Shown here: piece by piece, positions 44,202-57,140 of the stretch
How the letters are laid out: each line of letters opens with the position of its first letter
Numbering within the stretch: the stretch's first letter is position 1
Notes under the pieces: model-generated
Database searches by the model: none
What the model saw: only the letters and a program-made list of their open reading frames with translations
What the model was told of the DNA's origin: nothing
Position numbers and translations under genes: made by a program
From: Candidatus Gastranaerophilales bacterium
GTDB lineage: Bacteria; Cyanobacteriota; Vampirovibrionia; Gastranaerophilales; Gastranaerophilaceae
DNA: 64,000 nucleotides
NCBI GenBank assembly: GCA_944325605.1
Contig: CALVAX010000002.1
Location: forward strand, 124,001 to 188,000
Reading direction: 5' to 3'

Positions 44202-44274
44202 ATGTCATTCTGAGGACGAAGTCCGAAGAATCTAATTACGTCTTAAAGATCCTTCGCTTTGCTCAGGATGACAT
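44202..44274. repeat. full-length hairpin element, left of GIY-YIG gene
   Basis: ATGTCATTCTGAG-GGAC-like stem-GAAGAATCT, then a short spacer and the inverted half AGATCCTTCG...CTCAGGATGACAT. The two halves make one imperfect palindrome of 73 bases with terminal ATGTCAT/ATGACAT. The left half contains a GGAC-GAA-GTCC mini-hairpin. Confidence 0.9.
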
Positions 44275-44593: not shown

Positions 44594-44704
44594 ACGTCAT
44601 TCTGAGGACGAAGTCCGAAGAATCTAATTATGTTTAATAGATCCTTCGCCCTCTCACAAAACGATACTTAATCGTTTTGTTCGGCAGAGTGCTCAGGATG
44701 ACAT
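44594..44704. repeat. hairpin element with 39-bp cargo loop, right of GIY-YIG gene
   Basis: It starts with the same 36 bases as the left copy up to GAAGAATCTAATTA. The inverted half carries the 39-bp cargo loop at 44651-44689 (complement of CTCTGCCGAAC...TTGTGAGAG) before GCTCAGGATGACAT. It and the left copy lie in direct orientation. Confidence 0.9.
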
Positions 44705-44712
44705 GAAAACCT

Positions 44713-44760
44713 TACGTCATCCTGAACTTGTTTCAGGATCTCTTGATTTCAGGATGACGG
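44713..44760. repeat. short hairpin element, CTTGTTTCAGG variant
   Basis: CGTCATCCTGAA-CTTG-TTTCAGGATCT then an inverted TTTCAGGATGACG. Here the internal stem is CCTGAA/TTTCAGG rather than the GG-CC class. Confidence 0.8.
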
Positions 44761-44776
44761 TGTTTATGCATACAAA

Positions 44777-44810
44777 AACTCCCGTCTGCCTTTAGAGGAA
44801 AACGGGAGTT
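44777..44810 (-). terminator. terminator of the repetitive 627-residue protein gene
   Basis: Minus-strand stem AACTCCCGT/ACGGGAGTT with a 16-base loop and trailing Ts, 7 bases after the stop. Confidence 0.85.
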
Positions 44811-44816
44811 GTATAA

Positions 44817-46700
44817 TTATTTTGTCTTTTCATTATCGAGTTTTGCGAGTTTTTTTACAAATTCCGGATTACTAAAGTCAATTGTTTCATCTTTAATTCC
44901 GAGTTGTTCAAGTCGTTTGCTAAGGTTTTCGTATATGTGTTTTTGAATAGGCTCTTCACCCATAAACCATTCTTCCTTAAGTGCCTGCACTAAAGATTGA
45001 CCGGCCACGGCCTCGTATGAAGTCAGGACTTTAATAACGTTTTCAGGATTTATATATTCAAGCAGAGCTATTGTATCGCGGTTTAATGTCGGTCCTGAAA
45101 TTATGTGATGTAAGGAATCTGCAAGGACTGATTTTGTACATACACCGTTTTCGTCAAACTCATATTTATAATCCCTTTCTATGCCGTCTGAGTTTTTGCT
45201 CTTGATGTGGGTCAGGCGGAGAACTCCGTTTTCAACGAGCCTGTCAACGGTTTTGCCGTCAGCTTTGTAGTATGTTTGTTTTGTTACATTGTTATCTTTG
45301 TCGAATTCTTTTGTCCACTCTACTGTATTGTCACCACGTGTTCGGGTTTTGGTATAACTATTGTCTTCATTGTATTTGTAGGTGTATGTATGGTCAACGG
45401 TTTTGCCGTCTTTTTTGTATATGGTAAATTTTGTAGTTCTGTCTTTGCTATCATTCTCTTCAATAAAGTATAGACTATTGTCACCACGTGTTCGGGTTTT
45501 GGTATAACTGCCGTCGTCGTTGTATTTGTAGGTTACTGTATAGTCAACAGTTTTACCGTCTTCTTTGTATTCGGTATATTTTGTCGTTCTGTCTTTGTTG
45601 TCCTTCTCCTGAACATAAGATAATGTATCATCTCCACGTGTTAGGGTTTTGGTATAACTGCCGTCTTCGTTGTATTTGGAGGTGACAGTACAGTCAACGG
45701 TTTTACCGTCTTCTTTGTATTCGGTATATTTTGTCGTTCTGTCTTTGTTGTCCTTCTCCTCAACATAAAATAATGTATCATCTCCACGTGTTCGGGTTTT
45801 GGTATAACTGCCGTCTTCGTTGTATTTGTAGGTGTCTGTAGTGAAAACAGTTTGCCCGTCGGCTGTGTAACTAATTTCCTTAACTAACTTTCCATTTTCG
45901 TCATACTGACGTTCTAAATCCAGTTTGTCACTGCCTGTTTTTGTTTCAAGTTCAGCAGTCTTCTTGCCGTTGTTGTCATATTCAGTTACTACGCAACATT
46001 CATTATCTGCGTCACCTTTATTATAAATACGTTTTACTTCTCTGCCGTCTTTGTCAGTCCAGATTTCACAGTCGTTGTTACCTGCATCTTTGCCTTGTTT
46101 TGCTGTTATGCCTTCAGGCGGTTCAGTTGCTTTTACATACGGGTTTGCAGCAAGTCTTTCCTGCGGAGTTTGCTGTTGTGCAGCTGTCGGGTTCTCAGCG
46201 GCTGTCGGGTTCTCTGCAGCTTTCGGGTTTTCAGCGGCTGTCGGGTTCTCAGCGGCTGTCGGGTTCTCAGCAGCTGTCGGGTTCTCAGCAGCTGTCGGGT
46301 TCTCAGCGGCTGTCGGGTTCTCAGCAGCCGTCGGGTTTTCTGCAGCCGGAGCGTTCTTAATCACTACGCCCATTGCCTCATACAACTGTGCAGTTTCTTC
46401 TGCCGTAAATTCTATCTGCTGGTCGGGATGCACTATAAAACTATTATGCCAGCCGGCTTTTGTCTTGTCCGTGCCGCCTGTGAATATCGAGGCTTTTCCT
46501 TCGGCCTTTCTGTTCTGCTGAAGTTCAATCAGCTTGTCCAGAACAGCATTCCACTCTTTTGCCGTAATCTTGCCGTCTGTAAGTTCTGCGGTCTTGTTCT
46601 TTATCATTTCATCTACAAGATCTTTCAGGGCATGGGTAATCCCGTAATTCTTCTTAATCTTAATTGTTGCAGGATTAATTCCTGGCACATTCTCACTCAT
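44817..46700 (-). CDS. large acidic protein with two tiers of internal repeats
   Basis: A 627-residue hydrophilic protein of unknown function. Residues 1-115 are helical, with LTDGKITAKEWNAVLDKLI resembling an EF-hand-like loop. Residues about 118-172 are nine AAENPT hexapeptides (one is AAENPK). After a region with paired Cys (GNNDCEIWTDKDG, NECCVVTEYDNNG) come four tandem 50-residue units beginning KYNEDGSYTKTRTRGD and ending EDGKTVD, at about residues 292-491. These resemble YD/MORN-like beta repeats. No signal peptide or membrane anchor is seen, although the composition is that of a surface or secreted adhesin. AAGGAG precedes the ATG. Confidence 0.82.
   Translation of the reverse strand: MSENVPGINPATIKIKKNYGITHALKDLVDEMIKNKTAELTDGKITAKEWNAVLDKLIELQQNRKAEGKASIFTGGTDKTKAGWHNSFIVHPDQQIEFTAEETAQLYEAMGVVIKNAPAAENPTAAENPTAAENPTAAENPTAAENPTAAENPTAAENPKAAENPTAAENPTAAQQQTPQERLAANPYVKATEPPEGITAKQGKDAGNNDCEIWTDKDGREVKRIYNKGDADNECCVVTEYDNNGKKTAELETKTGSDKLDLERQYDENGKLVKEISYTADGQTVFTTDTYKYNEDGSYTKTRTRGDDTLFYVEEKDNKDRTTKYTEYKEDGKTVDCTVTSKYNEDGSYTKTLTRGDDTLSYVQEKDNKDRTTKYTEYKEDGKTVDYTVTYKYNDDGSYTKTRTRGDNSLYFIEENDSKDRTTKFTIYKKDGKTVDHTYTYKYNEDNSYTKTRTRGDNTVEWTKEFDKDNNVTKQTYYKADGKTVDRLVENGVLRLTHIKSKNSDGIERDYKYEFDENGVCTKSVLADSLHHIISGPTLNRDTIALLEYINPENVIKVLTSYEAVAGQSLVQALKEEWFMGEEPIQKHIYENLSKRLEQLGIKDETIDFSNPEFVKKLAKLDNEKTK
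45227..45827 (-). repeat. four 150-bp tandem coding repeats
   Basis: Four units of exactly 50 codons follow one another. The first two share nearly all residues and the last is the most diverged. Phrases such as CACGTGTTCGGGTTTTGGTA recur every 150 bases. Recombination could change copy number without breaking the frame. Confidence 0.85.
46186..46347 (-). repeat. nine 18-bp tandem coding repeats (AAENPT)
   Basis: The phrase GCTGTCGGGTTCTCAGC recurs about nine times without spacers. Copies differ only at third positions and one ACA/AAA change. There are no unique spacers, so it is not CRISPR. Confidence 0.9.
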
Positions 46701-46983
46701 AATGAATCTCCTTATGTTATATTCCGTATGATATACTTATATAAAGTTTATATGCCCTGAAAAATTGCGCTTTATATCTTTCTATTTTTTTTGCTTTTTG
46801 CCATGAACCCTTGTCATTGCCTGAATCAAGCCATAAAATTAATCTTTACAATTTGTAATATTTCATATATTTATATTAGTGTATATTTTGTGAAAAGGTT
46901 ATATAATAAAATAAACTGATTTGAAAAGTTCGGTTGATTTTAATTTGGAAATCATTAAATTTGAAGAATAAAGGATGATTAAG

Positions 46984-55824: not shown

Positions 55825-57140
55825 GTGGAGTTGAACAGTTGAACGGGTGAAAGGTTGAAGGGATTGTTACACAATAATTCCCTCTCCCTACGGGAGAGGG
55901 TGACACGAAGTGTCGGGTGAGGGGGCGAACTAACGAGTAGAGTTGAACAGTTGAAAAGTTGAAAAGTTGAATGGTTAGTTTTGGCATAAAGGCGATAAGG
56001 AGCGCCCCATTTTGTCATGCTGAACTTGCGGATTTTCGGTAGGGTGAAGCAAAGCGGAACCCGTAAGGTGCGGGTCGGACGTTACTCCGCCCGCACCCCG
56101 AATAATCCAAGATAGTCTCAGTATCTCAACGAGATCCTGAAATAAATTCAGGATGACAGTGGTAGACAAAATGGGGCGAAAGAGAAGGATAAAGAGAGTT
56201 GAACAGTTGAAAGGGTGAAGGGTTGAAAGGTTTTTTACGTGAAAAGTTCCCTCTCCCCTTGTGGGATGCTAGTTCGAACCGGCGAAGAATGAGCCGAGTG
56301 AGACTGTATGCCGTATGGCTGAGGGTTAGGGTGAGGGGTCAGACTGAAAGTGAAGAGTGAAGCGTGAAGGGTGAAGAGGGTTGAACGGGTGAATGGTTGA
56401 AAAGTTGAAAGGTTTGTTTCAGGAAAAGATACTAGGGCACTAGGAGGTTTCGGATAAAAGACGATAGGACGATAGGACGTTAAGGCGAAAAGTTCTTTAC
56501 GTAAAATAATCCCCTCTCCCTTGAGGGGAGAGGGAGAAATTGTTAGTGAGCATTAGCGAACTTACAATTTCGGGTGTGGGTGATTTGTAAGTCAGGTTCT
56601 AACAAAGTGAGGCGTGAAGTGTGAGGAGTTGCAAGGTTTTCATGTCATCCTGAGCCACTCTGCCGAAAAAACGATTAAGTATCGTTTTGTGAGAGGGCGA
56701 AGGATCTTCTGAAAGCGCGATAAGATTCTTCGGTCGTTACACTCCCTCAGAATGATGCGGTACTGTGCAAGGAGATTCTTCGGGCATTCGCCCTCAGAAT
56801 GACATGAAGAAAGATACGTCATCCTGAGGCTTTAGCCGAAGGATCTACTTAAAAATCCGACGGGATTCTTCGGGCTCCGCCCTCAGAATGACGTGGCATG
56901 CAAGAAGATTTTTCGGTCGCAAGGCTCCCTCAGAATGACGTGGCATGCAAGAAGATTCTTCGGGCATTCGCCCTCAGAATGACATGAAGAAAGATACGTC
57001 ATCCTGAGGCGTACGAGCAGAGAATGAAAGGCGTATGCCGTACCAGTTTATTGCGAGTGCGAGAAGCCGAAGGATCTCCTGAAAATTCCATGGGATTCTT
57101 CTGTTGCTGCACTCCCTCAGAATGACATGTAGTGTGCGGG
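55825..57140. repeat. intergenic repeat island 2
   Basis: About 1.3 kb without a supported gene. 55.83-56.53 kb is a composite of GTTGAAcagTTGAAaag heptads, CCCTCTCCC...GGGAGAGGG palindromes, GTGAAGgGTGAAG phrases, and GATAGGACGTTAAGGCG phrases. From 56.36 to 56.53 kb this is the inverted counterpart of 8.62-8.85 kb. 56.02-56.16 kb and 56.64-57.14 kb hold at least eight copies of the TCATYCTGAG...GAAGRATC hairpin element in both orientations. They carry differing loops, including the 39-bp cargo (56658-56695) and the longer cargo (56997-57078). Confidence 0.85.

Follow-up and report, generated by a model that had tools for sequence, protein, structure and literature searches.

Where does a protein built largely from tandem repeats act when its N-terminus carries no recognizable export signal, and by which route would it leave the cytoplasm? 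This question is raised by a gene in a 64,000-nucleotide stretch (hereafter the window, meaning the whole of the DNA that was analysed) from a Candidatus Gastranaerophilales genome of 2.15 Mb in 30 contigs, 99.8% complete. On balance, and with moderate confidence, we favour the explanation that the encoded protein belongs to a modular protein family, specific to this lineage of gut Gastranaerophilales, whose members are extracytoplasmic and Sec-independent.

Gene architecture and changes in repeat number

The preliminary description, made from sequence alone, had placed an open reading frame at 44817..46700, and the ORF list and translation bear this out: a frame of 627 amino acids occupies exactly that span on the minus strand, where all features of the gene given below also lie. 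By eye, a ribosome-binding-site-like AAGGAG (46708..46713) precedes the ATG, and just downstream of the stop an inverted repeat, AACTCCCGT...ACGGGAGTT, followed by a T-run (44774..44810) is intrinsic-terminator-like, likewise by eye and with no tool score. The plus-strand ORFs over the same stretch are, in our reading, antisense readings of the repeats. The intergenic DNA of the window also holds dispersed repeats (44204-44232, 44596-44624, 44717-44742, 56131-56156, and 56864-56892), and a similar repeat, visible as a translated remnant, is seemingly present 3' of two paralogues on contigs 11 and 14.

Two tiers of repeats had been described in the protein, and both are present. Tandem Repeats Finder and a unit count place nine hexapeptide units of 18 bp at residues 119-172 (46185..46346), eight of them AAENPT and one AAENPK, and a unit alignment together with the predicted model places four 50-residue units, of two hairpins each, at residues 291-490 (45231..45830). 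The Tandem Repeats Finder scores of these arrays are 748 (150 bp) and 264/292 (18/54 bp), while the other four rows reported in the window score 50-74. The near-identity described for the repeats at the DNA level applies to the 18-bp array (mean identity of 93.8% to its own consensus) and for 150-bp units 1 and 2 (94.7%), but not for the remaining 150-bp pairs, at 65-83%. Among the 150-bp units, non-synonymous codon differences outnumber synonymous ones in all six pairs.

The expectation that repeat number would change without loss of frame is borne out within the genome itself. Two near-twin paralogues, one on contig 11 and one on contig 14, agree at 372 of 372 bases from the start and beyond these differ, among other changes, by one hexapeptide and one 26-residue unit; the contig 11 copy carries an in-frame TAG close to its end. 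In-frame unit change is thereby demonstrated between recent paralogues of one genome. Orthologues in other species vary both in unit number and in linker type, with AAENP in the window protein (9 units) and in G013 (8 units), GSEAP in G002 and G010, and NAPENP in G001. The contigs of G013, G002, G010, and G007 stop within the repeats, so these orthologue unit counts are lower bounds. The gene thus encodes a real modular repeat protein of a lineage-specific family, whose repeat parts are quick to change length.

The hairpin sheet and the C-terminal module

The structure of the 50-residue unit, which the preliminary description had singled out for prediction, is a pair of beta-hairpins in a confident model. 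Specifically, the repeat and C-terminal parts, modelled from an eight-row alignment (pLDDT 92.2, pTM 0.76), form a long succession of hairpins and then helices, and the hairpin meander covers about residues 199-524 (45129..46106). Pfam assigns this part to DUF2963 well above its cut-off (E 7.4e-16; 57.7 bits against 22.6). DUF2963 was modelled as a repeat family in the accessible part of PMC8078820, and the available portion of PMC12633904 describes it as the "Scorpion" repeat of secreted phytoplasma proteins, with tandem hairpins of about 26 residues in 1 to 24 copies and a reported similarity to SdgB. The window protein agrees with this account, having strands throughout the model and a 50-residue period that corresponds to two hairpins of about 26 residues. 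It shares with the Scorpions the DUF2963 match, tandem hairpins of about 25-26 residues, a copy number that varies between proteins, and an SdgB-like sheet. Unlike them, it holds its repeats between a lineage-specific N-terminal module with a low-complexity linker and a helical C-terminal module, and it comes from a two-membrane gut relative of cyanobacteria and has no hydrophobic start.

Structural comparison of the repeat model returned other open or shell-like sheets. The best Foldseek matches were Rhs and teneurin shells built of RHS/YD repeats (E 1.9e-11 to 1e-9 for the first sixteen chains), followed by OspA and others. RHS_repeat is also matched by 11 of the 56 family ORFs described below; however, the TM-scores to these shells are low (0.04-0.20), and a Pfam search of the window protein itself, with E values up to 1 considered, did not detect an RHS repeat. 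The top VIA-align match was engineered OspA (Z 9.7, 253 residues aligned), which likewise has a long open antiparallel sheet, but the rmsd of 11.2 is high, no sequence relation was seen, and this Z is within the range where a common arrangement suffices. The same reading may be enough for the matches to the sheets of SdgB, TarM, and GtfA/B, at Z 6.6 to 8.1.

The C-terminal module (C-module; 44832..45137) was delimited by profile searches and is helical in the predicted model. Its profile matches strongly in the window gene and in one gene on contig 26, and more weakly in one on contig 3, the latter two lacking the N-terminal module. Another protein of the genome, of 550 residues (L004:181-1833), carries similar hairpin repeats and also lacks that module; it adjoins a 344-residue short-repeat protein of the DADFSDSKITNLGNLKSIGG type (L004:2167-3201).

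The N-terminal module, its partners, and cellular location

Residues 1-116 (46353..46700) form a lineage-specific domain, the N-module, which was predicted with AlphaFold2 at pLDDT 81.6 and pTM 0.68. A search of the genome with this region, which the preliminary description had called for, shows it to be shared by four proteins in all: the window protein, the contig 11 and contig 14 paralogues, and one protein on contig 21 with a C-terminal part that is weakly similar to SLT transglycosylases (E 6e-4, which falls short of the Pfam cut-off). The N-module is under purifying selection, with dN/dS of 0.08 and 0.20 in comparisons with the two nearest species. Profiles were seeded with rows picked by hand (14 for the N-module and 10 for the C-module), and the N-module profile matches all 14 genomes of the genus, at one to four copies each. 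Of 99 relatives, 26 match; every one of these is among the 60 that belong to this family, and the 39 non-members give no match. Association counts below were taken from this profile; a whole-protein query, which also gave 26 of 99, was left out, since part of its matches come from the linker alone or from the C-module (e.g. G028, G040, G092, and G036). In named records, 20 related loci are labelled as Candidatus Gastranaerophilales or Melainabacteria (18) or as uncultured bacterium (2).

A further possibility is that the protein belongs to a phage or other mobile element, for which its repeat-rich, fibre-like composition is the one point in favour. N-module relatives are absent from IMG/VR contigs, from 50,697 phage records, and from 72,556 plasmid records, which argues against such an origin. 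Moreover, the housekeeping neighbours of the gene are syntenic in two other species: its TPR neighbours are retained in G013 and G004, two of the nine loci compared, and in the remaining seven the gene lies elsewhere or the stretch is too short to judge. We regard a phage or mobile origin as highly improbable. A single one of 21 N-module sequences matched PHROGs at E 0.0011, to a family of unknown function, and the rest were weaker.

Neither the sequence nor the fold of the N-module matches known export or wall-binding domains in Pfam, profile, and structure searches. Foldseek gave nothing at E 0.001 or better, and the top VIA-align score among 260 chains was Z 3.0, which does not imply a new fold. 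A LysM-like nature of the module, suggested by eye, gained no support from profile comparison: the LysM family PF01476 has no match on the N-module of the window gene, and hhalign against nine LysM-like segments of this lineage gave probabilities of 2.6-3.4%. An EF-hand-like segment, DGKITAKEWN, had been noted in this region, but this assignment fails. An EF-hand loop carries acidic ligands at positions 1 and 3; here the loop has D42, G43, I45, and E49, but A38 and L40 occupy those two positions, and Pfam EF-hand_5 reaches at best E 0.092, in 4 of the 21 N-module sequences, none above the cut-off. One N-module subfamily (L143:8932-10011 and its relatives in L144, L145, and L147) has an EF-hand-like DIDGDGKI near the C-terminus of its L143 member.

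We assembled 56 N-module ORFs (57 entries, minus two duplicates, plus one paralogue; some rows are cut by contig ends), in which Pfam identified 11 RHS_repeat, 8 SLT, 8 DUF2963, 4 EF-hand, and 2 YkuD matches, together with single matches to other families, while one ORF matches the Trp ring of trimeric adhesins. The four EF-hand matches come from one subfamily and lie near the C-terminus as read. Among the fusions to peptidoglycan enzymes, L026 (SLT, E 2e-32) and L075 (YkuD, E 4.4e-12) are clear single cases. The N-terminal region had been suggested as a possible shared export module, and its fusion to such enzymes in relatives would fit a role in export or wall targeting. Counting against the extracytoplasmic reading, most N-module ORFs have no recognizable peptidoglycan enzyme, the contig 21 paralogue has only its weak SLT match, and the N-module itself resembles no known export or wall-binding domain in the searches above.

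Signal-like starts were assessed by hydropathy only, as the best 15-residue Kyte-Doolittle mean within the first 60 residues. The value for the window protein is 0.30, compared with 2.53 for its TPR neighbour, and no hydrophobic segment was seen by hydropathy along its whole length; the absence of a visible export signal was therefore correctly noted, and by this measure the N-terminal signal of a Sec-exported surface repeat protein is missing. In the larger fetched loci, all 28 N-module ORFs have best values of at most 0.99, as compared with 1.89-2.91 in seven controls (the TPR neighbour and six others chosen by eye for signal-like starts). The protein from L041 has a hydrophobic stretch in mid-protein (2.17), not at the start. 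Elsewhere, a protein at L105:1-1893 combines five LysM domains with a phage-type lysozyme domain and shows no obvious signal peptide by eye.

The uniform lack of signal-like starts (28 of 28), and of any hydrophobic segment in the window protein, is also what would be seen if these repeat proteins stayed in the cytoplasm in a scaffold or storage-like role, with the fusions to SLT and YkuD as exceptions or released on lysis. The 8 SLT and 2 YkuD matches among the 56 family members speak against this, as we know of no cytoplasmic substrate for these enzymes, and so does the member with the adhesin-type Trp-ring match; we judge the cytoplasmic explanation unlikely. The lack of a classical export signal, taken with a front domain that is shared with cell-wall-cutting enzymes, suggests exit by an unrecognized route, and the window protein is most likely located outside the cytoplasm. 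It has no catalytic domain, and for this reason we infer its location from its relatives. In the extracytoplasmic arrangement that we favour, the N-module may serve as a shared address or anchoring domain. After it comes a low-complexity linker (Ala/Glu/Asn/Pro) whose length varies; the beta-hairpin repeats, in an elongated open sheet, would then act as a stalk or binding surface, with the helical C-module at the far end. Since units are gained and lost in frame, stalk and linker length would evolve quickly, with the N- and C-modules conserved.

Flagellar-type export genes and possible routes of exit

Flagellin was found in 0 of the 14 genomes of the genus and in 48 of the 99 relatives, and FlhA in all 14 and in 94, respectively. 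From these searches of the 99 genomes, a tally by hand separates two types of FlhA. Among the matches listed, a high-scoring type (790 bits or more) occurs in 44 of the 48 flagellin-positive genomes and in none of the 51 flagellin-negative ones, and a full-length second type (about 668-740 bits) in 45 of the 51 flagellin-negative genomes. The second type is 75-96% identical among seven copies compared and 35-39% identical to flagellar FlhA, is under strong constraint (dN about 0.04, dS 1.3-1.5), and scores under the NCBIfam cut-offs for both FlhA and SctV. Gene calls and Pfam place it in a fliE-fliF-X-fliH-flhA operon in five genomes, namely G047, G007, G041, G012, and the flagellin-negative source genome (G000:C17, L119:9939-16053). 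The product of the third gene, X (353 amino acids), had no Pfam match at the thresholds used. In such an operon this position is usually occupied by fliG, and the C-terminal part of the product is FliG-like by eye only. In the flagellated genome G069, the second-type operon, an SLT gene, and rod genes converge on fliP-fliQ-fliR-flhB-flhA of the first type. Two further proteins, at L120:7274-8746 (491 amino acids) and L121:8710-10494 (595 amino acids), match mainly the C-terminal part of FlhA, and the latter is related to the third gene of the operon.

Partial flagellar gene sets in this order have been read as loss in the parts of PMC3787301 and PMC4040986 available to us, and PMC5877343, as far as accessible, describes a more complete set in a member from the termite gut. 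The reuse of reduced flagella for secretion is discussed in the accessible part of PMC3459982, with reference to the non-flagellar or reduced type III systems of Myxococcales and Buchnera. The Gastranaerophilales species without flagellin resemble these in keeping export-gate and basal-body genes; they differ in a second FlhA that falls below both cut-offs and in a third operon gene without a Pfam match. Judged by titles and the opening lines of abstracts, no published account of type III secretion in this group was found.

A more specific form of the extracytoplasmic reading, which we put forward tentatively, is that a filament-less flagellar type III apparatus exports the family, with the N-module or nearby residues being read by the retained FlhA. 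It is a somewhat doubtful proposition that in flagellin-less gut Gastranaerophilales the slowly evolving gate (second FlhA, FliE, FliF, the FliG-position protein, and FliH) is a working secretion machine for which the N-module marks cargo. Such cargo would comprise wall-cutting enzymes as well as stalk-like repeat proteins, either shown on the cell surface or set free there, and FlgJ-type muramidases, which exit without a Sec signal, offer a precedent. Consistent with this proposal are the genus-wide retention of FlhA without flagellin, its place in the operon, and its conservation. Within the family (f1), flagellin is absent from 24 of 26 N-module genomes versus 16 of 34 others (p 2.5e-4, uncorrected for shared descent), and by genus from 10 of 12 versus 12 of 28 (p 0.035, likewise uncorrected). 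Moreover, two FlgE/F/G-like genes occur 2.1 kb away from one N-module-YkuD gene, and an SLT gene follows on their far side; two N-module proteins match this SLT gene through their own SLT domains at E of about 1e-36 to 1e-37. A relative of the third operon gene is found about 4.5-5 kb away from one N-module subfamily in three genomes; this locus looks orthologous and so counts once, and a related locus in G007 lacks that gene. As a link between N-module and type III export, the synteny and the flagellin association are suggestive only.

Several observations weigh against the link. The flagellin association may reflect one loss event, flagellin is present in two N-module genomes, 16 of the 40 flagellin-negative genomes of the family lack the N-module, N-module genes lie outside the operon, and no substrate signal was found. 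A candidate N-terminal motif of signal-less proteins, N-F-x-G-K, was rejected, occurring in 4 of 174 proteins of the source genome against a shuffled mean of 5.1.

Export could also proceed by another route, e.g. a TolC-type channel that reads an unknown signal. The source genome has 18 TolC-family (OEP) matches, and all 14 genomes of the genus have some, although TolC-family proteins serve efflux pumps too. Set against this, a type I secretion system is reported absent from gut genomes of the group in the portion of PMC3787301 that was available, and we consider such a route quite improbable.

Taken as a domain family without a Pfam counterpart, the N-module unites proteins that have no signal, and of which some carry peptidoglycan enzymes, in a gut lineage that is common and mostly uncultured. 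DUF2963 (Scorpion) repeats, known from secreted proteins of phytoplasmas, are now seen in another phylum, and here the gain or loss of units in frame is directly evidenced. More generally, these genomes pose a testable question as to the role of flagellar export genes in Gastranaerophilales without flagellin. If the type III proposal is true, what has been described as a decaying flagellum would be a machine for secretion that has a modular family of substrates of its own.
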